In this document: piece after piece, positions 29,175 to 42,454 of the stretch | Numbering within the stretch: the first letter of the stretch is position 1 | Layout: the number at the start of each line of letters is the position of its first letter | DNA from: an uncultured Pseudomonadota bacterium | GTDB lineage: Bacteria > Myxococcota_A > UBA796 > GCA-2862545 | NCBI GenBank assembly: GCA_913061235.1 | Contig: CAJXTB010000022.1 | Coordinates: 1 to 64,000, forward strand | DNA: 64,000 nucleotides | Reading direction: 5' to 3' | The notes under the pieces: model-generated | Databases searched by the model: none | What the model was told of the DNA's origin: nothing | What the model saw: the letters and a program-made list of their open reading frames with translations, nothing else | Made by a program: the position numbers and the translations under genes

Positions 29175-29191
29175 CTGGCACGCCGCATGCA
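29175..29191 (+). promoter_or_regulatory. Sigma-54 promoter of the PHP/TPR-barrel unit
   Basis: CTGGCACGCCGCATGCA has the full -24 box CTGGCACG and a -12 box ATGCA, with GG and GC 12 bases apart. It lies 21 bases upstream of the ATG at 29213, leaving room for the ribosome-binding site AGGAGG (29203-29208). Confidence 0.78.
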
Positions 29192-29212: not shown

Positions 29213-29953
29213 ATGACCATTACCCACAGCCACGCCGCTCGCATTGACGAAGACCTGCATGTTCACTCGACCTGGTCCGACGGACGCGCGACAATCGAAG
29301 AGAACCTCGCCATCGCGGAGTCGCTCGGACTGCGACGCCTCGGATTGGTCGATCATGTTCGTCACGACACGACGTGGGTTCCCAAGTTCGTGCGCGCGGT
29401 CGATGCACTGCGCAAAACCACGGATATCGAGCTGATCTGCGGTGTAGAGACCCGGATGCTCGACGAGTATGGCGCCATGGACCTACCCCAAGACCTCGGG
29501 GGCGTGGACCGCGTGTACATCGCCGACCATCGTCTGCCGTTTGCAGACAAGTGCCTCACCCCAAAGGAGGTCCGGGCGCTGAGCCGCTCCAACGCCGTCA
29601 CAACACCAGACATTGTCGCCGCATTGGTCCGAGCGTCCATCGCCAGCATGCGGCGTTCACCACTCCCCGCAGTCTTGGCACATTGGGGCTCGATTCTACC
29701 GAAGATTGATATCGATCCGCACTCGGTCACCGAGAGCCAGCTCGACCGTCTGGCCGAAGCAGCGGTGGAGACAGGCACCTGGGTGGAAGTCGATGAGCGG
29801 TGGCAGGCTCCGTGCTCCGCGACCGTACTCGGTCTCGCAAAGCGCGGAGTTCCTATTGTCTTCAGCAGCGACGCACACCGAGCCCCAAGCATTGGCCAGT
29901 TTCCGTGGGCGACAACAGTGAAAGTAAACCTGGCGCTGCAATGTGGCTCCTAG
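29213..29953 (+). CDS. PHP-domain metal-dependent hydrolase
   Basis: 246 aa, a whole PHP domain. Metal-binding motifs in order: DEDLHVHSTWSDG (HxH), LGLVDHVRHD, LICGVETRM (Glu), VYIADHRLPF (His), VLAHWGSI (His) and IVFSSDAHRA (DxH). PHP enzymes include histidinol phosphatases, nucleases and the CpsB/YwqE-type protein-tyrosine phosphatases that control capsule synthesis; given the polysaccharide genes nearby the last is attractive but unproven. The ATG at 29213 has the strong site AGGAGG and a sigma-54 promoter close upstream. The gene overlaps the next by 13 bases. Confidence 0.85.
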   Translation: MTITHSHAARIDEDLHVHSTWSDGRATIEENLAIAESLGLRRLGLVDHVRHDTTWVPKFVRAVDALRKTTDIELICGVETRMLDEYGAMDLPQDLGGVDRVYIADHRLPFADKCLTPKEVRALSRSNAVTTPDIVAALVRASIASMRRSPLPAVLAHWGSILPKIDIDPHSVTESQLDRLAEAAVETGTWVEVDERWQAPCSATVLGLAKRGVPIVFSSDAHRAPSIGQFPWATTVKVNLALQCGS

Positions 29954-31059
29954 GCTTCCTGTCAGTTGCTCTCGCCGGTGATCTACATCAGGACGGCGTT
30001 GCCATGCGCGACGCGGGCGACCTAAACGGCGCTGTGACGGTGTTGCAACAGGCAGTGGACGAGGAACCGGGCGACACCGACGCGTGGCTCGACCTAGCCG
30101 TCACCCAAGCCTGGAGTGGCGACCCCCAAGCCGCACTAGTGTCTCTTGAACAGGTACTCCAGATAGACCCAACAAACCTGGGAGGCCTCGCCTTTCAGGC
30201 GCGAGTGTTGTCCTGGGACGGGCAGTTCGCCGCCTCTCGTGCGGCATGGGCCGCACTTCGAGACTCCCATACAACCGACCCGAACCTGTGGAGCGGGAGC
30301 GCTGACCTGTACCGGACCTGCGGTGCCCTCAGGAAAGCCCGACGCGCCTACGACACCGCACTCAACCTCGAACCGAATCATGCTGAGGCAGCCGCCGGCC
30401 TGCGAGCGCGGGCCCAACAGTCGTCCGTTCGGGTGAGTGCATGGGGCGGTATGACCTTCGGCGCCGGAGCAAGCGGCGGAGCGATGGTTGAAGCCCGTCT
30501 TGCATGTTCGCTACGCGGGACTGCCGGCCTCAGTCTACCTGCGCCGACAGACTCCTCGTCGTCGTGGGCAAAAGGCGTGCGTACAGATCTGTCTGTCACG
30601 CGGTCCGCTGCAGACAAAGCGACCATCGGGGCACAGGCTTCGATCAGTGCTTCGGCCCTACGCCTCACCGGCTTCATGGCTCAAGGCTCGGGAAACGTGC
30701 GCTTCGGCGGTCAAACCGGCGTTGGATTCGCGCAGAACCAAGACCCCACTTGGCTTGCGGGCCCCACTATCGACGCCGCACTCACAGGTCAGTCTTGGTC
30801 GCGGGTATCCGTGGTCACCGGGCTCAACCGAGAGGGTCTCGACGACGTCATCGGCGTTGCAAGTGTCGGCTATGCCGAGCACCTACGCCTCGATCTGGCC
30901 ACGCGTTGGACCGCTGAGACAACGCTACACAGCCTCTCAGTATCGGCACGCAGCCCTCTGACCCAGTCGGGCCAAGCCACCCTAAGCGTACAGACGACGC
31001 TCGCCGCAAACCCACTCGTGACGGTGAACGTCGGCTGGGTTGTGGGACACGCACCGTAA
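29941..31059 (+). CDS. TPR protein with predicted outer-membrane beta-barrel (exporter-like)
   Basis: 372 aa with a signal peptide (MWLLGFLSVALAGD). Residues about 15-160 form three to four TPR units (GDLNGAVTVLQQAVDEEPGD, GDPQAALVSLEQVLQIDPTN, GALRKARRAYDTALNLEPNH). The remaining 210 residues are Gly/Ser/Thr-rich alternating strands (VRVSAWGGMTFGAGASGG ... LVTVNVGWVVGHAP) that look like a small barrel. TPR plus barrel is the design of the polysaccharide exporters BcsC and PgaA and of YaiO-like proteins. It is coupled to the PHP gene by a 13-base overlap, so it should share its sigma-54 promoter. Confidence 0.75.
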   Translation: MWLLGFLSVALAGDLHQDGVAMRDAGDLNGAVTVLQQAVDEEPGDTDAWLDLAVTQAWSGDPQAALVSLEQVLQIDPTNLGGLAFQARVLSWDGQFAASRAAWAALRDSHTTDPNLWSGSADLYRTCGALRKARRAYDTALNLEPNHAEAAAGLRARAQQSSVRVSAWGGMTFGAGASGGAMVEARLACSLRGTAGLSLPAPTDSSSSWAKGVRTDLSVTRSAADKATIGAQASISASALRLTGFMAQGSGNVRFGGQTGVGFAQNQDPTWLAGPTIDAALTGQSWSRVSVVTGLNREGLDDVIGVASVGYAEHLRLDLATRWTAETTLHSLSVSARSPLTQSGQATLSVQTTLAANPLVTVNVGWVVGHAP

Positions 31060-31129: not shown

Positions 31130-32956
31130 CTAGTGTCGGATGCGACCCCGTGCTGTCCACAGACCACCGACAATGAGCAATAGGACCGACAGAATACCGG
31201 TGACGAGGTTGACGAGACCGGCATGGGATTGCTCTTCTGAGGGCTGGACCGCCAGAGAGTCCGGGTCCAGGCCAAAGGTCACGACAACCGTTGAGTCCCC
31301 GACAGAACCATCATCCAGGGCGACCCAGCTGTCGGTCCAGACGGCACCGGCGGTCGGCATTTGAGAGAGGTCCGGCACTGGGACATCCACCGCGTCCACA
31401 CCAACCGTCACGACAAGCCGTTCACACCGCCCACTCAAACAGTCGTCGGCAAAGAGGAGCGGGCTCTCGTTGGCTACTAACTGCGGCAGGGGGACCCACT
31501 CACCGATGTCGAGCCATGGGCTGGTGGGCGCTGCAATCTCGACATGTGGGGAATGAGGTTCCGAGCTCACCAACCAACGGTCTGCCGGCGTGCGCGATGC
31601 CACACCAGACAGCAACACGCCGGCCTGTAGCCAGTCGACCGAAGCAAGCTCGGCATTCCAGGCAACCATTGGCCGCGAGTGTTCTGTCGCGCGGGAAAAC
31701 GCAGCAAGACCGTGAGTCAGCCGTTCCGTGCGGACCACTTCCACTCGGGATGTGGGCTCCAGGACCACGAATACACCGCGGTCGTTGTCCACCGCACAGG
31801 CATCGGCGTCCTCTGTGGAGGCGACAACCTGAAGTTCGAAGGTCCACTCCGACTCGTCCCAAAGTGCATATGGAATGCGTGCAACCCACCGCCGAGCGGT
31901 GTCGTCGCCAGACAAGGACCACGACCCGATGGGCCGCCCCTTGACGGTGAGCAATGCCGCAGACTCTCGCGAAAGAACGCCAGCATGCGGCAGCGTGATG
32001 TCCAGTACAACGACCGGCGCTTCATCGAGCGTCCAGGACCGCGAACGGGCAACCGTCCAACGCGTTGTGTGATGTCCGGCACCGCTCAACACTCGACCGG
32101 AAGGCCCCCACGGGCCCTCGCCCGTCCACACCGTCGCATCGAGAGAATGCGAGCCATTCAGTACTTCGGCACGCTCGCCGCCAACCGTGCAGAGCAGCTC
32201 GGTGCAGGCTTCAACAACACCCGGCTGATTGAAGGTCCACAGGCCCGAAGCGAGGGTGTCAGAGTCGCGGCCGACCACCCAAACGTCATCCTCTACAATG
32301 CCAATGACGCTGTCCGCAGACTCCACCAGCATGAGGCGTTGTCGCAGATCGGGCGGAACATCCACATTGGTGAGGTCCCGCAGATGCAGCGTCTTCCCCC
32401 GACCGTTCCCGGGTCGAGTTCCGCGCCTGACTAGCCAGTCTGCCGCTTCAAGCAACACCGTCGCTTCGTCTGCACCAGTCCCCACACTATCGACGTACAC
32501 GCCGTCTTCCTGTCGCCAGGACGCCACGACATCCGCCACCGAGCCCACCGGTCCGTCCCCGCGAACGCCTTGTAGAGCGGACTGCTGTGCCAGGACCAAC
32601 CACGCGGCTTCGGGGTCGTGAGCCAGGCAGGGGTCGCCCGGGACGACCAGGTGAGAGACAAATTCCACCCGATGATACCCAGCACTCTGCATAGGCAGGG
32701 CAATTACACCTGTGCCATCCTGAACCAGCTGTGCCACCGAGAGTGTCCGCACTGGCACACCGTCGACCCGCACCGACAAGGTGGAGGCGTCGACGTCGAG
32801 ACGGTCAGAGGCACTGACCACCAGTCGTGCGGACACAGCTCCGGGGTCGTCAACAGCAACTGTCGTGGTCCATTCGGCAGTTGTACCGGACATCACCACA
32901 GGTCCGTTCGACAACGGATGGGCCAAGGCGAGATGGGTAATGAGCAACGGGAACAT
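31130..32956 (-). CDS. BcsB-like periplasmic subunit of a polysaccharide synthase
   Basis: 608 aa with a short signal peptide (MFPLLITHLALAHP), a large periplasmic part and a C-terminal membrane helix (GLVNLVTGILSVLLLIVGGL) with a basic tail. The N-terminal module has RLDVDASTLSVRVDGVPVRT, then GYHRVEFVSHLVVPGDPC and PEAAWLVLAQQSALQG, the order found in BcsB, the membrane-anchored partner that guides cellulose from BcsA through the periplasm. A second copy of the carbohydrate-binding/flavodoxin-like pair seems to follow. Similarity is distant, so cellulose itself is not implied. The ATG has GGAGGA upstream and a sigma-54 promoter 22 bases away. Likely partner: the GT2 synthase at 33790..35253. 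Confidence 0.68.
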   Translation of the reverse strand: MFPLLITHLALAHPLSNGPVVMSGTTAEWTTTVAVDDPGAVSARLVVSASDRLDVDASTLSVRVDGVPVRTLSVAQLVQDGTGVIALPMQSAGYHRVEFVSHLVVPGDPCLAHDPEAAWLVLAQQSALQGVRGDGPVGSVADVVASWRQEDGVYVDSVGTGADEATVLLEAADWLVRRGTRPGNGRGKTLHLRDLTNVDVPPDLRQRLMLVESADSVIGIVEDDVWVVGRDSDTLASGLWTFNQPGVVEACTELLCTVGGERAEVLNGSHSLDATVWTGEGPWGPSGRVLSGAGHHTTRWTVARSRSWTLDEAPVVVLDITLPHAGVLSRESAALLTVKGRPIGSWSLSGDDTARRWVARIPYALWDESEWTFELQVVASTEDADACAVDNDRGVFVVLEPTSRVEVVRTERLTHGLAAFSRATEHSRPMVAWNAELASVDWLQAGVLLSGVASRTPADRWLVSSEPHSPHVEIAAPTSPWLDIGEWVPLPQLVANESPLLFADDCLSGRCERLVVTVGVDAVDVPVPDLSQMPTAGAVWTDSWVALDDGSVGDSTVVVTFGLDPDSLAVQPSEEQSHAGLVNLVTGILSVLLLIVGGLWTARGRIRH

Positions 32957-32978: not shown

Positions 32979-32995
32979 TGCAAGGGCGGGGCCAA
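32979..32995 (-). promoter_or_regulatory. Sigma-54 promoter of the BcsB-like gene
   Basis: On the minus strand TTGGCCCCGCCCTTGCA has a -12 box TTGCA of perfect form and a -24 box TTGGCCCC, with GG and GC 12 bases apart. It lies 22 bases upstream of the ATG at 32956. It abuts the oppositely oriented promoter at 33001-33017. Confidence 0.7.
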
Positions 32996-33439: not shown

Positions 33440-33793
33440 ATGAAGATGACCGGCGAGTACCTGAGCGAGACCACTAAACGCTTCGCGGATGCCGGTTTTA
33501 CCGTGGTAGTGCAGACCGACCAAGACACCAGTGATGGGACGGTGCACTACGACCGTGACCGCCACATTGTGACCCGCGGTACGCGCGAACACATCCAGAT
33601 TGAGCACATCACCTACCCGGATGGAACGGTGGCATGGTGGTTCATGATTGTCACCTGGCACGGTCTACGCGCAGACAGCTTCCCAATGGACTCATGGAAG
33701 CACAGGCCGGACCGAGTCGAGTTCAAGTTCATGGCGTCACAAGAGACCGGCTTAGGTCTGGCCTTTGTGGTCCACTTGGATGCTCTGGACTAG
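33440..33793 (+). CDS. Hypothetical protein in the polysaccharide locus
   Basis: 117 aa, soluble, no signal peptide. It starts with KMTGEYLSETTKRFADAGF, a helix, followed by alternating strands (TVVVQTDQDT, DRDRHIVTRGTREHIQIEHI, VAWWFMIVTWHGLRADSF, RVEFKFMASQETGLGLAFVV). The alpha/beta pattern suggests a small single-domain fold, but I recognise no family and no catalytic set. It lies 6 bases after the tail-anchored small gene and is convergent with the GT2 gene, overlapping its stop by four bases. It probably belongs to the transcript from the promoter at 33001. Confidence 0.6.
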   Translation: MKMTGEYLSETTKRFADAGFTVVVQTDQDTSDGTVHYDRDRHIVTRGTREHIQIEHITYPDGTVAWWFMIVTWHGLRADSFPMDSWKHRPDRVEFKFMASQETGLGLAFVVHLDALD

Positions 33794-35253
33794 CCGACCT
33801 TGCCCGTCTTTTCGGTCTTGTCCCACGTGCGCGCAGCCCCTTGCCACTCCTTGATGTAGGAGGCAAACGTCACCGCACACAGAAAGGCTCCGTACCCAGC
33901 AAGGAGAAGCAGCACGCTCGACAGGCGTTGGTATCCCCGTGCCTCCACTTGTTTCGCTGAGTACGCCACCAGCATCGACGCCGACAACCAGCTGTACAGG
34001 CCGACAAGCCCCAACGTGTGAAGACCGGTTCCGGACGCGGGCAGGAAGGGAGCAAGGGGCGTCAACAGCGGTGGCCAGAGGGACGTGACAATCACTGCGA
34101 GCGAGATCAGCCCGGGAAAGAGAATCCCTTCCATCCAGCTCTTCCGTGCACTCTCTACATCAATCGCCAGACTGACGGCGGTAACGATAAGGTAGACCAG
34201 ACCTGCCAGAATCCAGAAACCACGGAACAGCATCCAGGCGAGGGGCGGGTCGAGGACCAACAGCATCAACAAGCCGACTGTGGCGCCAATCTGAAGCACT
34301 GGCATCAGGAACAGCGAAAACCAGATGACCACCATCGATATCGAGCCAAGGCTGGCATGGCGCTTTCGATTGCCCCAGAGTCCTTTGTAGACCTGGGTGA
34401 TCTGCACATTTCCTCGCGCCCAGCGCAGGCGTTGCTTCCACAACATCCCAAGGGAGTCCGGCTCCTCAGCGTACACCAGCGCGTTGGGCTCAAACAGCGC
34501 TTTTCGCCCCGCTAGTTGGGTCTTGAAGGTAGTAAACGTGTCTTCGGCGAGGGTATCGTCGAAGATCTGGCCGCCAATGGCCAACAAGTTCTCTCGGCTG
34601 TGAAGCTGAGCGCCGCCCGACAAACAGGCCAAGAACCCGAGTACGTTCTGGGCACGTCTCGAGGCCCCGGTTGCCGTGATGTACTCAAAGGTGACGAAGC
34701 GCTGAACCAGGTTGGGACTGCGCGAGCCCTCTTTGATGTAGGCCGTGACCGCGCCGACCAAGGGGTCCGCAAAGTGGCGCGCCATGCGCTTAAGTGACGA
34801 AGGACTGTAGATAACGTCTGCATCCATGATCAGGATGGCTTCGGTCCAGTCGTTTCGCCAAAGGGTATCGAGTCCGTAGTTGAGGGTGTGCGCTTTGCCC
34901 TCGCCGCCCGCCACGCGTCGCAGGTGAAAGACCCGTCCGGGGTAGCGCTTGGCTTTCTCAATGCACGCTTCCGGGGTCCCGTCGTCAGACCCATCATCCA
35001 CCACCCAAATCCGCAGTCGGTCTTTGGGGTAGTCCAGGCGGACCAAGCGCTCAATGGTGGTTGCGATTACCGCCGATTCGTTCCACGCCGGGATGAGCAC
35101 GCTGATGCGTGGCAGCTCTTGTCCGGTGTGTTCCAGGTGTGTGGAAAACACCGACAGGGCAACCAACATGAACTGGTACAAGCCCGCGAAGACTGGGACC
35201 GTTGCAACGATGACCGCAGCGGTAGCCACTGCGCTGACCAGTCCACTCAACAT
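33790..35253 (-). CDS. Processive family 2 glycosyltransferase (polysaccharide synthase)
   Basis: 487 aa. One N-terminal membrane helix, a cytosolic GT2 domain at about 48-290, then four or five membrane helices. The catalytic set of processive synthases is complete: ISVLIPAWNESAVI and VVDDGSDDGT (first Asp), ILIMDADVIYSP (DxD), TLAEDTFTTF (TED-like base) and QRLRWARGN (QxxRW). There is no PilZ domain, so no direct c-di-GMP binding as in BcsA; the size is closer to PgaC/IcaA-type poly-GlcNAc synthases. The presence of a PIG-L deacetylase nearby agrees with an N-acetylated polymer. It lies two bases after the ATP-grasp gene, in one transcript. Confidence 0.9.
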   Translation of the reverse strand: MLSGLVSAVATAAVIVATVPVFAGLYQFMLVALSVFSTHLEHTGQELPRISVLIPAWNESAVIATTIERLVRLDYPKDRLRIWVVDDGSDDGTPEACIEKAKRYPGRVFHLRRVAGGEGKAHTLNYGLDTLWRNDWTEAILIMDADVIYSPSSLKRMARHFADPLVGAVTAYIKEGSRSPNLVQRFVTFEYITATGASRRAQNVLGFLACLSGGAQLHSRENLLAIGGQIFDDTLAEDTFTTFKTQLAGRKALFEPNALVYAEEPDSLGMLWKQRLRWARGNVQITQVYKGLWGNRKRHASLGSISMVVIWFSLFLMPVLQIGATVGLLMLLVLDPPLAWMLFRGFWILAGLVYLIVTAVSLAIDVESARKSWMEGILFPGLISLAVIVTSLWPPLLTPLAPFLPASGTGLHTLGLVGLYSWLSASMLVAYSAKQVEARGYQRLSSVLLLLAGYGAFLCAVTFASYIKEWQGAARTWDKTEKTGKVG

Positions 35254-35255
35254 GG

Positions 35256-36233
35256 CTAGGCTACAGCCTCCGACGCAACTTCAAAGGTCGATACCGGCAC
35301 ATAGATTTCTTCCCAATGACGCACCATCGCGCACTCAACGAAGGGAGCGGGCGCCGGTGGGTTGCGCCCCAGAAGGTCGTCGACCGCCAATGCCGGCATG
35401 TTCACGCCACTGTGCACGGTGAGTGCCATGGTTCCCGGAAAACGTGGATTGATCTCGAGCAACTTCGGCACCCCATTCCGGTCGCGACGGAGCTGCACAT
35501 TGCTGACGAAGCTCAACCCCAAGTGCTCGACGAGGGCCGTGGCGATGCCCTGAAGCTCCGGGTCCCGCACAGTGCGCGAGGCAACAGCCACTCCAGAGTC
35601 CACCTTCATCCGCAGGCGTGGCACGGCGGCCACTACAACTCCCTCGCGACTGCACAGCACATCCACGCTGTACTCTTCGCCCGGCAGCCACTCCTGAAGC
35701 AGCAACGAGCCGTCTCGCGGCACATCGTCCCAGTCTTCAGCGCGTTCGATGAGGCGAACCCCTCGCCCACCGGCTCCTGAACGCGGCTTCACCACAACGG
35801 GAAGCGCCCAGTGAGCGGGTACGAAGTCCGCGTCGACCACTTCCCACTCGGGAACCGGAACGATGCCATCGGAAGTCGCCATGAGCGCGGCCTTGTCCAA
35901 GCAGATGGCAAGGGCGGCCTGGGGCGCCACGAGTACCGCGATGTTGTGATGCCTAAATGCATCTGTGAGTGCCGCGGCAATCGGTAGCTCGGTATCGACC
36001 GTCGGCACCACCACGTCCACACCCAGGCGAGAAGCCGCCGTCATCAAGGCTACCCCAAACGCAGGGTGATCTGCACGAGGCAGCAGCACCCGATGGGCTT
36101 CCGGTACCAAGTACAGGCCGACAGCATGCGGGTCGATGTCGGCAGCAAACAGGGTGACATCCGGGCCTGCGACGGCGCGCATGAATGAGACAGCAGCAGC
36201 ACCACCGGCACCAGTAACGAGAATTCGGGTCAT
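35256..36233 (-). CDS. ATP-grasp ligase
   Basis: 325 aa. The N-terminal pre-ATP-grasp domain begins ILVTGAGGAAAVSFMRA; the ATP-grasp fold shows LPVVVKPRSGAGGRGVRLIE (Lys and glycine loop), LLQEWLPGEEYSVDVL and the metal-binding LLEINPRFPG. The layout matches carbamoyl-phosphate-synthase-like or PylC-like ligases that couple ATP hydrolysis to formation of a carbon-nitrogen bond between a carboxylate and an amine. The substrate is unknown; in this setting an amino group freed by the PIG-L enzyme is a possible acceptor (inference). GGAGGA precedes the ATG and a sigma-54 promoter lies 24 bases upstream. Confidence 0.87.
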   Translation of the reverse strand: MTRILVTGAGGAAAVSFMRAVAGPDVTLFAADIDPHAVGLYLVPEAHRVLLPRADHPAFGVALMTAASRLGVDVVVPTVDTELPIAAALTDAFRHHNIAVLVAPQAALAICLDKAALMATSDGIVPVPEWEVVDADFVPAHWALPVVVKPRSGAGGRGVRLIERAEDWDDVPRDGSLLLQEWLPGEEYSVDVLCSREGVVVAAVPRLRMKVDSGVAVASRTVRDPELQGIATALVEHLGLSFVSNVQLRRDRNGVPKLLEINPRFPGTMALTVHSGVNMPALAVDDLLGRNPPAPAPFVECAMVRHWEEIYVPVSTFEVASEAVA

Positions 36234-36256: not shown

Positions 36257-36273
36257 TGCACAGACCGTGCCGG
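36257..36273 (-). promoter_or_regulatory. Sigma-54 promoter of the ATP-grasp/GT2 operon
   Basis: On the minus strand CCGGCACGGTCTGTGCA has the -24 core GGCACG and the -12 box GTGCA, with GG and GC 12 bases apart. It lies 23-24 bases upstream of the ATG at 36233. Confidence 0.72.
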
Positions 36274-36404: not shown

Positions 36405-36421
36405 TTGGTACGGTCCCTGCA
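36405..36421 (+). promoter_or_regulatory. Sigma-54 promoter of the receiver-PIG-L gene
   Basis: TTGGTACGGTCCCTGCA has the -24 box TTGGTACG (one change from consensus) and the -12 box CTGCA, with GG and GC 12 bases apart. It ends 22 bases before the ATG at 36444, with GGAGGT (36434-36439) between. Confidence 0.75.
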
Positions 36422-36443: not shown

Positions 36444-37445
36444 ATGACTCACATCCACCGAATCCTTGTTGTTGAAGATGACCATTCTCTGGCCCGGCTC
36501 ATTGAGCTGTGGCTCGGACGCGAAGGCTACGCAGTGGACGTGCTCCATGATGGTCTCGACGCCATCCAGCGCATTCACGAGGAACGGTACGACGTCATCT
36601 TGAGCGACGTTCACCTCCCGCACGCCAACGGCATTGAAGTGCTGGCGGCGAGTCGCGAAGTACATCCCCTGGCACCGGCACTGTTGATGACCGCAGGTGC
36701 CGGCGTTGAATACGCGTCCGCCGCCATCGATATGGGGGTTGACGCTTACGTGATGAAGCCATTGCGGCAAGACGACCTTGTAAACCGGGTGCGCTCGGCG
36801 CTAGCGAAGGTCGCTCCTAAGAAGGGAAAGACGATTCTAGCGATTGGCGCCCACCCAGACGACATAGAGATTGCCATAGGCGGGACCCTCGCCGCCCACC
36901 GCGATGCAGGCGATGACATCGTCCTACTGTGCCTGTCTTGGGGGGCAAACGGCGGTGGCCAAAGCCAGCGTCGTGATGAAGCCAAGGCGGCGGCACACGT
37001 CCTCGGTGCCCTCTTGTACGGTGGTGATCTCCAAGACACGCGGTTCGAGTTGCGGTCCACCATTGCCGCTATCGAACGTGTGGTCCGACAGATTCAGCCC
37101 GACGTCGTCTACACCCACTGCGCCGAGGACGTACACCAGGACCATCGAACCGCACATGACGCCTCACTCGTGGCCTGCCGGAGTGTGCCTACCTTGCTCG
37201 CCTATCAGAGTCCCTCAACCACCGTCGCCTTCCAGCCCACACGCTTCCAGGACATCAGCGACCAAATCGACGACAAGATGACGCTGATTGCCTGCCACGA
37301 CAGCCAAGCGTCCTGTCGCACCTACATGGCGCCGGAGCTACTACGCAGCACAGCGCGCTACTGGGGTCGCTTTTCGGGGTGTGAGTACGTGGAGCCGCTC
37401 GTCGTCGTACGCGAAGCGGCACGCGGCCTGGCCAAAGCGAGCTAG
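36444..37445 (+). CDS. Response-regulator receiver fused to PIG-L (LmbE) deacetylase
   Basis: 333 aa in two clear domains. The receiver (about 5-122) has the acidic pair EDD at 11-13, phospho-acceptor Asp55 (VILSDVHLPHANG), Thr83 and Lys105 (YVMKPL). The PIG-L domain (about 128-325) has the zinc motifs AHPDD at 136-140 and HQDH at 231-234, plus SWGANGGGQSQRRDEA. PIG-L/LmbE enzymes remove the acetyl group from N-acetylglucosamine moieties. The fusion implies deacetylation switched by phosphorylation, probably by the hybrid kinase encoded next door. The ATG has GGAGGT and a sigma-54 promoter upstream. Cytosolic location suggests it acts on a precursor rather than on exported polymer. Confidence 0.92.
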   Translation: MTHIHRILVVEDDHSLARLIELWLGREGYAVDVLHDGLDAIQRIHEERYDVILSDVHLPHANGIEVLAASREVHPLAPALLMTAGAGVEYASAAIDMGVDAYVMKPLRQDDLVNRVRSALAKVAPKKGKTILAIGAHPDDIEIAIGGTLAAHRDAGDDIVLLCLSWGANGGGQSQRRDEAKAAAHVLGALLYGGDLQDTRFELRSTIAAIERVVRQIQPDVVYTHCAEDVHQDHRTAHDASLVACRSVPTLLAYQSPSTTVAFQPTRFQDISDQIDDKMTLIACHDSQASCRTYMAPELLRSTARYWGRFSGCEYVEPLVVVREAARGLAKAS

Positions 37446-37604
37446 AGAGTTGAACCGCTAGGCGGACCGAGCACGAGGGTATCAGCGGTTTCATGAGGAC
37501 GTGACCGAGGAGGAAGCTCGACTTGTCAAGTGACTGACGAGGGAGCAACCCACGGAATCGCTGGGGCCCGCGGGCGACGGGAGCGTAGCGGTTCACCTCT
37601 CTAG
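37442..37604. repeat. 163-bp element bounded by 19-bp inverted repeats
   Basis: CTAGAGAGTTGAACCGCTA (37442-37460) and, inverted, CTAGAGAGGTGAACCGCTA (37586-37604) match at 18 of 19 positions. The TAG stop codons of both convergent genes (REC-PIG-L and hybrid kinase) lie inside these arms in the same context. The 125 bases between them contain no gene. It could be a bidirectional terminator, a duplicated 3' end or a recombination target. Confidence 0.85.
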
Positions 37605-40600
37605 CGCTCGTCGAACGTCTTGGGGGGTGGTCGCCCCCCCATCTCGTCGTAGATAGACGCGATGTACCGGTGTAGCTTTCGCAATGAAGCCGACAACACC
37701 TCGATGGGAACGTGGCCAGCATTGCGCTCAATCTCAGCACCCAGCTCACTGATGCGGGGAAAGCCGTAGCTTCCACCACTGCCCTTGAGCTGATGTCCTA
37801 CGCGGCGAATGGTCTCCCAATCTTCGGCCTTGATAGCCATAAACAGCCGCTCAATATCGTCGTCACGATCTTGTAGAAAGGCCGGTACGAGCTCGCGTAG
37901 GTCATCGGGCACCTGCACGCGACGTGGAGCGGCAATCGGCGTTCCAGCCTCTGGTTCTGCCCGAAGCCAGTCCGTCACCGCGCTCACCAGTCGCTCAGAG
38001 CGAATGGGCTTGACCAAGACATCGTCGTAGCCTGCGCGTAAAAAGGCCGGATGGGCCTCGGCAGAATCGTGTCCGGTGACGGCAACAACCCGTCCCGTAA
38101 AGCCTTCCTGACGCAAGACTCCGACGGCCTCCGGGCCGGACATCCCCGGCATTTCCACATCCATAAGAACCAGGTCGGCGGGCCACGTGCGAAGCTCAAG
38201 GACGGCTTGCGAGCCGCTGGAACAGGCACGAATTGTGAGCCTGCCCATGCCATCCAGAACCGACTGAAGGTAGCGACGGATGTCTGCAGCGTCGTCGACA
38301 ACAAGCACCCGTGCAGCCGAACGGACAACGCGGTCGAGGGTGCGCAGGAGGGTCGAGCGCCGAATCGGCTTGGACTCAAATGCATCCATGCCGGCGTCCA
38401 AGGCAGCTTCGCGGACCTCTGGGGTCGCATGGGCGGTCAGCCCAACGATTGGGACGCTGCGCATGCCCGCCCGGCGCTCACTCTCACGGATCTGACGCGT
38501 CGCCTCCACACCATTAAGTACAGGCATGTCCACGTCCATGACGATGATGTCCCACTCGTCGCCATTTGCGAGCTGAACAGCGCGTTGCCCATCGCTCGCG
38601 ACAACAACTTCATGTCCGGCCGATTCCAACATTCCCGTTGCGACCACTTGGTTGGCGGGATTGTCCTCGGCAAGGAGAACCCGCCACGGGCGTACGTGGG
38701 TGGGCCGGGTGCCCGAGTTCGGATGGGCGATAGGCCTACCGATGGCCTCCAGCAGCGCTTCCAAGATGCGCTCTTGGGCAAAATGAGCGTACACCCTACG
38801 GTTCGCGACCTGAGCTGCCGTGGGATTCACCGGCACCCCCACAGGAGACGCCAAGACCAAAGGAATCGGTCCACGCGGCGGCTTCACCGATCCACCAGTC
38901 AGCCAGACCTGTGCTTCACGGCTCGATACGAACGACAGGGGTGCTCCAGCAAGAGCGTCCTGTAAGATAGCGCGCACCTCTGGGCTCGCTAGGACCGCAA
39001 CCCGCAATCCAGCACAGGCAGCGCGAAGTTGGGTCAGACGTTCCGGTTGAGCCTCACCAGTGACCTGCACCGGAATGCGAACGGTAAACCGACTTCCCTG
39101 GCCGACAACGCTGTTGACGCTAATGTCGCCCGACATCGCCGTGAGGATGCGCCGGGTGATGTGCAGGCCAAGCCCCGTTCCCCCACGAGAAGCCCCGTCT
39201 GCCTGCCCATACTTGTCGAAGATGACCGCCATGCCTTCTTTCGAGATGCCCACGCCGGTATCGCGTACATCCACTCGCATGACAATGCCGTCCACACCCC
39301 GCGATGGCCGACCGCTGACGCGAATAGCGACTTCGCCCCTGTCGGTGAATCGAATGGCATTAGCGATGAGATTGACCAGCACCTGCCGTAGCCGGGCTCC
39401 GTCCCCCACAACAGTGTCCGGCATGTCCGGGTCTAGGAAGACGCGAATCGCGAGACCCTTGGCATGGGCTCGGTGCGAGATGCTCTCCACAATGCTCTCG
39501 AGCCACCCGCGCACGGAGAACGCATTGGGGTCGATTGTGAGCTGACCGGCCTCAATCTTCGAGAGGTCTAGTACATCGGTGATGAGATCGAGCAGGGTCT
39601 CACCGTTACTCCGAATCGACGACAACCACGCCTGCTGTTCGTCGGTGAGCCGGGTCGCAGTAAGCAGCTCCGACATGCCCAAGATGGCATTGAGCGGCGT
39701 ACGAATTTCATGACTCATACCGGCCAAAAAGTCCGACTTGGCCTGACTCGCTTCGTCCGCAAGCCGTTTGGCGACCTGCAGTTCTTGGCGAATCCGATGC
39801 TCGGTGGTCACGTCCCGGTACAGCCACATATGGCCAGCCGAGCGGCCATCGAGGACCACTGGAATGTAGTCACGCTCCAGTACACGCCCGTCTTTCATCG
39901 GCAGGACATCGCCCACAACACGGTCATGAGCGGCCACAATCTGGCGGACCGTCTCCTCAAAGGTTTCTTCGTCGACAAAGAGCGGAGCCGACTGCGCAGC
40001 AGACTTGGCGCAATCCGTTCCTACAAGCGCGAACGGTGGCACCGGGATGCCGAACATCTGGGTCAGGCCCTCATTGGCCAGGACCACCATTCGGTCTTCG
40101 TCTTCGACCAAGATGCCCATGTGCAGACTGCCAATCAGAGTCGACAAGCGCGTATTCGCGGCAACAGCGGACCTCTCGACCTCCACCCGCTCAGTCACGT
40201 CAAACGCATAGACAATCACGGTCTCTTCGGTGGCAGCCGCCATGACCAGCTCGAGAACGCGTTCTCCAAAGTTCACGTCGGACGACACTGGACGGACCGC
40301 TCGTGCTGCGCGTAGAATCTCCGCCAGCCAATCTTCTGGCAGCGTGTCCAGGTCACCGAGCAACGCCATGGCCGCAGCATTGCGGAAGACAACCCCGCCA
40401 TCTAGACGCACTTCGAGCACCGGACTCGGATTCATGCCCGGGTAGCGTGCCAAGCGAGACAGCGCGTTGCCATGCAGCCGGTCACGCTCGCCAGAAGCAC
40501 GTGCGGACTCCGACAGCAATGGCCCGAGCCGCCGTATTGCCGCCAAGTGGCGGTCGGTGAAGTACCCACGTTTCGGATTGGAAAAGACCAGGACACCAAG

Positions 40601-41002
40601 GCCATGTGCCATAGGCAACGTCGCCAACAGCAAGCTCTCACCATCAATGGGAATGACCGACAGATCAGGCAACCAGGTTCGGTTGAACACCGCCGCCGGA
40701 CCGTCCACACACAGTTCCATCACTTGCGCGAGCGGCCAGGCCCATTGCGGACTTGGGCCCTGACTTGAAAAGTACTGCGGCCCCGCTGCAGTTGGAAGAA
40801 CCGCTATGGCTTCCGTGAAGCCCAACATCGGCTTGAGAACGTCGAACATATCGCGCACCATCTGCCCGGCGTCTGTGGCCGTGGACAGCACCCGAAGTCC
40901 CGCCAGGACGACCTCCGACTCTTCACGCAGCGCCTGGGCACGCTCCCGTGAGCGAGCAAGGTCGTCCAACGCTATCTGAAGGGCTTCTTCCGTGTCGATC
41001 AT
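37601..41002 (-). CDS. Multi-domain hybrid histidine kinase (GAF/PAS, kinase, receivers, HPt)
   Basis: 1133 aa, no membrane segment. Residues about 30-165 look GAF-like, 190-275 and 285-400 PAS-like. The HisKA domain has His431 (FLAGMSHEIRTPLNAILG); the ATPase domain has NLIANAIRF, DTGVGISKEG and GGTGLGLHI. A degenerate receiver (about 670-750) is followed by two good ones (IIVMDVDMPVLNG and LVLMDVEMPGMSG) and an HPt domain with His1070 (GHQLKGSGGSYGF). It can thus run a whole phosphorelay. Its gene follows the NtrC gene by one base, and both probably use the sigma-54 promoter at 42438. Likely outputs are that activator and the receiver-PIG-L enzyme. Confidence 0.93.
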   Translation of the reverse strand: MIDTEEALQIALDDLARSRERAQALREESEVVLAGLRVLSTATDAGQMVRDMFDVLKPMLGFTEAIAVLPTAAGPQYFSSQGPSPQWAWPLAQVMELCVDGPAAVFNRTWLPDLSVIPIDGESLLLATLPMAHGLGVLVFSNPKRGYFTDRHLAAIRRLGPLLSESARASGERDRLHGNALSRLARYPGMNPSPVLEVRLDGGVVFRNAAAMALLGDLDTLPEDWLAEILRAARAVRPVSSDVNFGERVLELVMAAATEETVIVYAFDVTERVEVERSAVAANTRLSTLIGSLHMGILVEDEDRMVVLANEGLTQMFGIPVPPFALVGTDCAKSAAQSAPLFVDEETFEETVRQIVAAHDRVVGDVLPMKDGRVLERDYIPVVLDGRSAGHMWLYRDVTTEHRIRQELQVAKRLADEASQAKSDFLAGMSHEIRTPLNAILGMSELLTATRLTDEQQAWLSSIRSNGETLLDLITDVLDLSKIEAGQLTIDPNAFSVRGWLESIVESISHRAHAKGLAIRVFLDPDMPDTVVGDGARLRQVLVNLIANAIRFTDRGEVAIRVSGRPSRGVDGIVMRVDVRDTGVGISKEGMAVIFDKYGQADGASRGGTGLGLHITRRILTAMSGDISVNSVVGQGSRFTVRIPVQVTGEAQPERLTQLRAACAGLRVAVLASPEVRAILQDALAGAPLSFVSSREAQVWLTGGSVKPPRGPIPLVLASPVGVPVNPTAAQVANRRVYAHFAQERILEALLEAIGRPIAHPNSGTRPTHVRPWRVLLAEDNPANQVVATGMLESAGHEVVVASDGQRAVQLANGDEWDIIVMDVDMPVLNGVEATRQIRESERRAGMRSVPIVGLTAHATPEVREAALDAGMDAFESKPIRRSTLLRTLDRVVRSAARVLVVDDAADIRRYLQSVLDGMGRLTIRACSSGSQAVLELRTWPADLVLMDVEMPGMSGPEAVGVLRQEGFTGRVVAVTGHDSAEAHPAFLRAGYDDVLVKPIRSERLVSAVTDWLRAEPEAGTPIAAPRRVQVPDDLRELVPAFLQDRDDDIERLFMAIKAEDWETIRRVGHQLKGSGGSYGFPRISELGAEIERNAGHVPIEVLSASLRKLHRYIASIYDEMGGRPPPKTFDER

Positions 41003-41003
41003 C

Positions 41004-42365
41004 CTATTTCAGTCCATAGGCGCGCAATCGCCGGTAGAGCGTGGACCGCGGTACGCCGAGCAAGCGGGTCACCTCCGAAAGGTTGCCATTGCAGCGCTCA
41101 ATGGCGTCCAAAATGGCTTGCTTTTCAAGGTCTTGAAGGGTGCTCGATTCCACCGAATCAGCCAGTGTTGGCGCCGGAAGCTCTTCCACTACTGCGATTA
41201 GCGCCGGTGGAAGGTCCTGTACGTCCAACACCGACCCCGCTGCGAGAATGACGCCGCGTTCCATTGCATTCTGCAGCTCTCGGACGTTTCCCGGCCACTC
41301 GTAGCCAGACAGAATCGCCACAGCAGCAGATGACAGGCCGGACACCTCACAGTGGTGCCTCGCAGCACTGGTCAGGACGAAGGCATCTGCCAACAGGGCA
41401 ATATCGTCGCCCCGCTTGCGCAGTGCAGGGACCGCAAGCTCAACGACCGCCAGCCGGTAGTACAGGTCTTCGCGGAAGGCCCCTTCACTGACCATGGCGC
41501 GCAGGTCTCGGTGGGTTGCAGCAACAACGCGAACATCCACGCTGATCTGACGATTCCCGCCCACCCGGTACAGGGTTCGTTCCTGAAGCACACGGAGCAG
41601 AGCGGCCTGTAGGGATGGCGACAGCTCTCCGACTTCATCCAAGAACAGAGTTCCGCCATTCGCTTGCTCAAAGCGCCCTTGGCGACGGTCCGCAGCACCG
41701 GTGAACGCGCCCTTTTCATGACCGAACAGCTCGCTCTCCTGCAAGGTGGCTGCAATCGACGCACAGTTGACCGCGACAAAGGGCCCAGCCGAGCGCGTGC
41801 TCCCGTCATGCAGGGCACGAGCAACCAGTTCCTTGCCCGTACCGCTCTCTCCCGTCACTAAAACGGTGATGTCGCGCATAGCCACACGGTCCATCTGGCG
41901 GAACAATGTGCGCATGACGGGACTCTGCCCCAAGATGCTCGGATGACCGCCGGTGTCGACTTCTCGCTGAAGCGACGTGACTTCTAGCGTGGTCTTGGCC
42001 TTGTCCATGGCATTCCGGGCGGTCGTCACCACACGAGTTCGAGTCACGGGCTTGGGCAAAAAATCGTAGGCACCTCCCTGCATAGCCGCCACCACTCGCT
42101 CGACCTCAGAGTCCCCGGTGAGCATGACAATAGGCACCCTAGGATGCGCGCTATGAAGCTCCGGCAACAAGTCCATGCCGCTGCCGTCAGGGAGCTGGAC
42201 GTCCAAAAAGATGACGTCGGGCAAGCTCGCCCGAACCGCTTCACGAGCTTCGGCAATGCTGCCACACCGCTCTACTACGTAGCCTTCTTGAGTGAGCCAA
42301 TGGCCAAGAAGCCGGCACAAAGACGCGTCATCGTCCACCAGCAGAACATTTCGAGATTCGGTCAC
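41004..42365 (-). CDS. NtrC-family sigma-54-dependent response regulator
   Basis: 453 aa with the classic order receiver, AAA+, Fis-type HTH. The receiver has VDDD and the phospho-acceptor in [13 protein letters not shown]. The AAA+ domain has [15 protein letters not shown] (Walker A), [16 protein letters not shown] with the GAFTGA loop that contacts sigma-54, and [13 protein letters not shown] (Walker B). The HTH is at the end ([25 protein letters not shown]). It should remodel RNA polymerase holoenzyme at -24/-12 promoters, six of which lie within 13 kb. The GTG at 42365 with GAGGAA upstream is chosen over an ATG at 42404, since it starts right before the first receiver strand. Confidence 0.95.
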
Positions 42366-42437
42366 AGAAGCTTCCTCGTACCAGCAGCGTACACATCGGC
42401 ACACCCATGCACCAACGTCACCACTCTCTCCTAGGAA

Positions 42438-42454
42438 TGCAGGTGTCGTGCCAG
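42438..42454 (-). promoter_or_regulatory. Sigma-54 promoter of the NtrC/hybrid-kinase operon
   Basis: On the minus strand CTGGCACGACACCTGCA has a perfect -24 box CTGGCACG and a -12 box CTGCA, with GG and GC 12 bases apart. It lies 72 bases upstream of the chosen GTG, leaving a leader of about 60 bases. It implies positive autoregulation by the activator. Confidence 0.78.

Follow-up and report, generated by a model that had tools for sequence, protein, structure and literature searches.

Most response regulators have a DNA-binding or a second-messenger domain as their output. The PleD type, in which a receiver is joined to a GGDEF domain, offers a close comparison for a protein encoded in the window, the 64 000-nucleotide stretch of DNA analysed here. 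This protein, REC-PIG-L, likewise combines canonical receiver residues with a fused enzyme and a nearby kinase gene, but its output is a PIG-L sugar deacetylase. Both halves belong to known families; the new feature is PIG-L as the enzymatic output of a response regulator. A full-text literature search, which left most subscription papers outside its range, found no description of PIG-L/LmbE in this role, and automatic annotation may well have met the architecture already.

The PIG-L/LmbE de-N-acetylases (diacetylchitobiose deacetylase, BC1534, BshB, MshB and YaiS) have the AHPDD and HxDH motifs and the fold in common with the PIG-L domain of the window, which differs from them in its fusion to a receiver. 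The best NCBIfam score of this domain is that of BshB1 (TIGR04001; 86.7 bits), below the equivalog cut-off of 182.5, and identification as an enzyme of the bacillithiol pathway was dropped for this reason. In the Pga/Ica PNAG system, PgaB is both a PNAG deacetylase and a glycosidase. The GT2 synthase of the window is PgaC-like, with 139.4 bits to TIGR03937, but falls short of the equivalog cut-off of 422.3; the deacetylase is a cytoplasmic-type PIG-L and not a CE4 enzyme, and the window adds an ATP-grasp ligase and a BcsB-like protein. Actinobacterial relatives of the locus share with the Pga system a glycosidase with the fold of the PgaB C-terminal domain, whereas the window contains no match to a glycosidase of this type within 9.5 kb. 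The only CE4 deacetylase of the window genome lies on another contig, and no CE4 gene was found in the locus in any of eight genomes checked, although five of the eight encode one. Given the GT2 score and the lack of a CE4 enzyme in the locus, membership of the Pga system was dropped. Escherichia coli K-12 yaiS-yaiP-yaiX-yaiO, to which the literature search returned only passing mentions, resembles the window in placing a PIG-L gene beside genes for a PgaC-like GT2 and an outer-membrane protein; it differs in that YaiS has no receiver and an ATP-grasp gene is absent. The TPR protein of the window gave no Pfam match to YaiO (PF19413), and homology between the two was dropped. The exopolysaccharide module is related to Pga and to the yai locus, yet distinct from both.

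NosP operons typically contain a kinase and a response regulator (PMC12570481). The loci of several relatives resemble the NosP/NosK (FIST) and H-NOX phosphorelays in having FIST (L011, L120, L125) or HNOB (L012, L121) genes near the kinase genes, which by analogy suggests a nitric-oxide input in some of them. The window differs in having neither gene within 9.5 kb of REC-PIG-L, all three FIST genes of its genome lying outside the locus, and in its PIG-L output in place of a c-di-GMP domain.

REC-PIG-L is the sole PIG-L gene of the 7.18-Mb genome. Its ATG at 36444 directly follows a GGAGG sequence, and an alternative upstream TTG would add 13 residues. In Pfam, the Response_reg match has 86.2 bits against a cut-off of 30.2, and the PIG-L match, over residues 132-244, has 85.2 bits against 28.2. 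The sequence-only reading had described a complete receiver (Asp55, Thr83 and Lys105) joined to a PIG-L domain with AHPDD and HQDH motifs, and both descriptions held: the three receiver residues align as claimed and are accompanied by the acidic pair Asp12/Asp13, and the motifs lie at 36849-36863 (residues 136-140) and 37134-37145 (residues 231-234). By Pfam score and residues the protein would class as a response regulator, and by Pfam score and zinc motifs as a PIG-L deacetylase. In a first alignment of four receiver-PIG-L proteins, Asp55, Lys105, AHPDD and HQDH were invariant and position 83 was Thr or Ser. An AF2 model computed with 14 homologues has two well-formed domains (mean pLDDT 90.3) with a pTM of 0.72, their relative placement being unreliable. 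Foldseek related the N-terminal part to the BfmR and ArlR receivers and the C-terminal part to diacetylchitobiose deacetylases (8bgo and 3we7), BC1534 (2ixd) and BshB (6p2t). From these features the receiver and the deacetylase both look functional. Chance juxtaposition or a frameshift artefact is ruled out by the single open frame and the existence of full-length homologues.

Table 1. Features of the REC-PIG-L locus in the window.
Feature	Position	Strand	Remarks
PHP-domain protein	29213..29953	+	PF02811; conserved with the locus
TPR protein	29941..31059	+	TPR matches; weak PgaA match; probable outer-membrane barrel part
BcsB-like protein	31130..32956	-	C-terminal membrane helix; recognised through homologue L011:2527-4443
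Conserved 117-residue protein	33440..33793	+	homologues in seven related genomic regions; conserved in related loci of the phylum
Processive GT2 synthase, PgaC-like	33790..35253	-	DxD and QRLRW motifs; five predicted membrane stretches
ATP-grasp ligase	35256..36233	-	PF15632, PRK12767-like; divergent from the fusion gene
REC-PIG-L fusion	36444..37445	+	333 residues plus stop; open frame
Receiver domain	36462..36794	+	residues 7-117; PF00072, 86.2 bits; D55 at 36606-36608
PIG-L deacetylase region	36831..37412	+	residues 130-323; PF02585; fold match 8bgo, 2ixd, 6p2t
Hybrid histidine kinase	37601..41002	-	PAS, HisKA, HATPase, two receivers, HPt
NtrC-type sigma-54 activator	41004..42404	-	in tandem with the hybrid kinase
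Sigma-54-like element	29176..29191	+	22 bp before the PHP gene
Sigma-54-like element	32979..32994	-	23 bp before the BcsB-like gene
Sigma-54-like element	36257..36272	-	24 bp before the ATP-grasp gene
Sigma-54-like element TGGTACGGTCCCTGCA	36406..36421	+	23 bp before REC-PIG-L
Sigma-54-like element	42438..42453	-	34 bp before the NtrC-type gene

The hybrid kinase with an HPt domain is indeed encoded convergently with the fusion gene, as had been stated, and ends about 155 bp beyond its stop codon. Its score against the NahK/ErcS-type family NF041832 is 179.8, short of the cut-off of 400. The BcsB-like protein is 29% identical over 533 residues to its homologue in L011, which itself matches Pfam BcsB with 46 bits against a cut-off of 21.

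A scan for sigma-54-type sites with the GG-N10-GC core fixed and up to two mismatches allowed found 12 in the 64 kb, five of which sit 22-34 bp upstream of gene starts (Poisson p ~4e-10 for six transcription units of 60 bp each, the test having been picked post hoc). Since a generic scan in which the core was not fixed returned 21 sites against 21.3, which is at chance, the case for sigma-54 is made by position and recurrence. In related loci, a sigma-54-like site lies within ~115 bp upstream of REC-PIG-L in 8 of 13 cases, these including matches with zero or one mismatch in G276, G020, G011, G266 and RZ_616. No such site was found before the PIG-L gene of G001, which has a dead receiver and no adjacent kinase or NtrC-type gene. 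Judged in this way, the promoter-like elements of the locus are non-random, and they presumably serve as promoters.

The sequence-only reading had proposed a search for the REC plus PIG-L architecture and its neighbours, and this returned a conserved family of 28 receiver-fused sequences with recurring neighbours in at least two bacterial phyla, that of the window, probably Myxococcota, and the Actinobacteria. Both halves are intact in six genomes besides the window in the search of its phylum (G028, G266, G235, G372, G213 and G217), and the same holds for Myxococcota bacterium RZ_616 (L012). Eleven actinobacterial genomes add to these, those of Mumia quercus (L013) and of ten members of the same order. 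In a maximum-likelihood tree of PIG-L domains (110 rows, root not fixed), a branch with support 99/96 has every one of the 28 receiver-fused sequences on the same side, members whose receiver or PIG-L domain is dead among them; a second branch, with support 87/86, does the same for the 19 in which both halves are intact. The simplest reading of this tree is a single fusion event followed by spread. The catalytic motifs are almost unchanged in the 19 members with an intact receiver.

The fusion keeps constant company. All eight searched genomes of the phylum with a catalytic PIG-L domain (seven with an intact receiver, together with G001) have a close GT2 gene and a close ATP-grasp gene. With the exception of the GT2 gene of G266, both share a contig with REC-PIG-L in the genomes of the phylum, and in RZ_616 both adjoin the fusion gene. 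In the Mumia clade, GT2 and ATP-grasp genes lie within ~5 kb of all ten receiver-PIG-L genes, and a histidine kinase gene lies within 1.2 kb in nine of the ten loci. Exceptions are four actinobacterial genomes (G487, G513, G517 and G530) in which PIG-L is catalytic by motif with neither gene within 9.5 kb; an ATP-grasp match was found nowhere in these genomes. The two enzymes also accompany plain PIG-L proteins in Streptomyces pathocidini (L014) and in an actinomycetote (L045). In the phylum set with RZ_616, the biosynthetic genes are present in 9/9 genomes with catalytic motifs versus 0/3 without (p = 0.0045, overstated because the relatives are not independent). Among the relatives, 20 of the 23 whose receiver is intact have a kinase gene no further than 9.5 kb away, the exceptions being G235, G266 and G392, versus 3 of the 10 whose receiver is dead or has been replaced (p = 0.0024, overstated for the same reason). 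From these counts, the catalytic motifs go with GT2 and ATP-grasp, and the receiver with a kinase gene close by.

The actinobacterial loci carry an additional family (L013:10695-11813, minus strand, with homologues in L149-L157, L163, L167 and L022) that has no Pfam match above cut-off. Searches of PDB sequences found no informative relative, and the relationship emerged by fold comparison only. The best Foldseek match of the AF2 model (pLDDT 92.2, pTM 0.91) is the C-terminal domain of E. coli PgaB in complex with glucosamine (4p7n; E = 8.8e-12), and VIA superposition on 4p7n gave a Z of 28.9 over 329 residues with an rmsd of 3.1; the best chain other than PgaB was Cwp19 (Z = 25.6). Because the predicted fold of this partner glycosidase is that of the C-terminal domain of PgaB, our best guess for what the actinobacterial module makes is a GlcN/GlcNAc polymer. 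By similarity of the modules, the window locus would make a polymer of the same kind.

The apparent integrity of both domains, the conservation of the family, the proximity of kinases to intact receivers and the tracking of the catalytic motifs with synthase and ligase make sugar chemistry responsive to a phosphorelay, as proposed in the sequence-only reading, a good reading of this locus. We lean mildly towards a kinase-HPt phosphorelay with two outputs, NtrC/sigma-54 transcription and enzyme-level gating of an amino-sugar deacetylase in exopolysaccharide synthesis. REC-PIG-L would here be a response regulator with a zinc-dependent PIG-L de-N-acetylase as its output. The hybrid kinase would pass phosphate through its own receivers to HPt and from there to two targets. 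One would be the tandem NtrC-type activator, which would turn on the whole locus from the sigma-54 promoters; the other would be Asp55 of REC-PIG-L, gating cytoplasmic deacetylation of an N-acetyl-amino-sugar. The freed amine would sit on a precursor, on a lipid-linked sugar or on the chain as it grows at the membrane, leading to a partly de-N-acetylated polymer or to re-acylation by the ATP-grasp ligase. The PgaC-like GT2 would make the polymer, with the BcsB-like and TPR proteins assisting its passage through the envelope. The transfer of phosphate, the gating, the use of the promoters, the substrate and the ligase step are all inferred from gene content and motifs. The arrangement suggests that cells may tune polymer chemistry directly by phosphorelay, beyond the switching of genes.

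The ligase step has a partial parallel in mycothiol synthesis, in which the PIG-L enzyme MshB frees an amine to which a ligase then couples cysteine; the mycothiol ligase is not an ATP-grasp enzyme. By analogy, the ATP-grasp protein of the window may re-acylate the freed amine. A tentative extension, which we regard as possible and on the doubtful side, is that the phosphorelay determines, at the level of the enzyme, which acyl groups a PNAG-like exopolysaccharide carries, phosphorylation gating PIG-L and the ATP-grasp ligase capping the amines with another acyl or amino-acid group. If this is true, one signal would set both the amount of polymer, through NtrC/sigma-54, and the identity of its amide groups, and the locus would represent a new response-regulator output together with modified amino-sugar polymers made without an extracytoplasmic CE4 deacetylase.

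Natural variants bear on how the receiver might act. PIG-L is catalytic by motif and the phosphorylation residues of the receiver are lost in G001, G513, G517, G530 and G565, of which G001 and G565 retain GT2 and ATP-grasp. In five further genomes (G634, G449, G399, G672 and G561) hydrophobic, probably membrane-spanning helices replace the receiver, the PIG-L motifs are kept, an ATP-grasp gene lies within 40 bp and a GT2 gene within 1 kb; the PIG-L tree places these forms with E. coli YaiS and not in the receiver clade. Since loci such as those of G001, G565 and the membrane-anchored forms appear to work with no live receiver, gating would not be essential to the chemistry. The retention of a catalytic PIG-L domain beside GT2 and ATP-grasp where helices stand in for the receiver indicates that membrane placement seems to matter, and it favours an alternative in which the receiver determines where or with which partner the deacetylase acts, by docking it to the membrane-bound GT2 or the kinase complex, phosphorylation recruiting a constitutively active enzyme to GT2 and leaving its turnover unaffected. 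The AF2 model, which does not fix the arrangement of the domains, would accommodate this. The proposed contact with GT2 is itself conjectural, however, and this alternative is considered rather unlikely. Membrane helices, or TPR plus a membrane helix, stand where the receiver would be in the PIG-L proteins of L163-L167 and L022:488-2470; a PgaC-like GT2 is encoded beside each, and in L163-L167 an ATP-grasp gene also adjoins them.

The sequence-only reading had called the hybrid kinase the obvious phosphodonor of the fusion. The tandem NtrC-type regulator would be a second and at least equally obvious target of the same kinase. Because of this second target, the receiver could be a phosphate branch or sink that mainly tunes NtrC-type signalling, with the deacetylase constitutive or secondary. 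In G020, G011 and G276 (two copies) the receiver is intact, the zinc motifs are lost from PIG-L, and kinase and NtrC-type genes lie nearby, with no close GT2 or ATP-grasp gene found; the retention of the receiver with a dead PIG-L domain implies that in these three genomes the protein has a role without catalysis. As a general account the sink is nevertheless improbable, since the near-constancy of the motifs in the 19 members with an intact receiver stands against it, as does the fact that genomes in the phylum of the window have lost them solely where GT2 and ATP-grasp are missing. In the three loci concerned (L118, L120 and L121, from G276, G020 and G011, respectively) all zinc motifs of the pseudo-deacetylase are gone; a Ser/Thr-kinase-like gene also adjoins the fusion in G020 and G011.

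Alternatively, PIG-L could serve a small-molecule pathway (leading to a glycolipid, an antibiotic or a thiol like bacillithiol), with the polymer genes as incidental neighbours. This would agree with the BshB1 match, low as its score is, and with the many PIG-L enzymes that are small-molecule deacetylases, but is the least likely of these alternatives, as PIG-L proteins of all three kinds, receiver-fused, membrane-anchored and plain (L014 and L045), are repeatedly found with GT2 and ATP-grasp, and the E. coli yaiS-yaiP pair likewise comprises a PIG-L and a PgaC-like GT2.

For the favoured two-output phosphorelay, a family that forms a single clade and spans two phyla, with catalytic-dead and receiver-dead variants, provides a ready test of direct two-component control over polymer chemistry. 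The finding also points to a little-described module of PIG-L, ATP-grasp and PgaC-like GT2 in the Actinobacteria and the phylum of the window that is related to the uncharacterised yai genes of E. coli.

Several further features of the related loci were observed. In a Methanosarcinaceae archaeon (L088) an ATP-grasp homologue directly adjoins a plain PIG-L gene; as both stand side by side there, the pair may predate the receiver fusion. In G487 (L158), REC-PIG-L with intact residues lies a few kilobases from genes that, as read from the sequence, look like flgK and flgL of the flagellum. FIST or HNOB genes stand beside the hybrid kinase at L011:12425-13609 and L012:11558-12112, both on the minus strand, and in L120 and L121. 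In G235, a GGDEF-EAL gene (L114:7658-9700, minus strand) adjoins REC-PIG-L at the place taken elsewhere by the histidine kinase.
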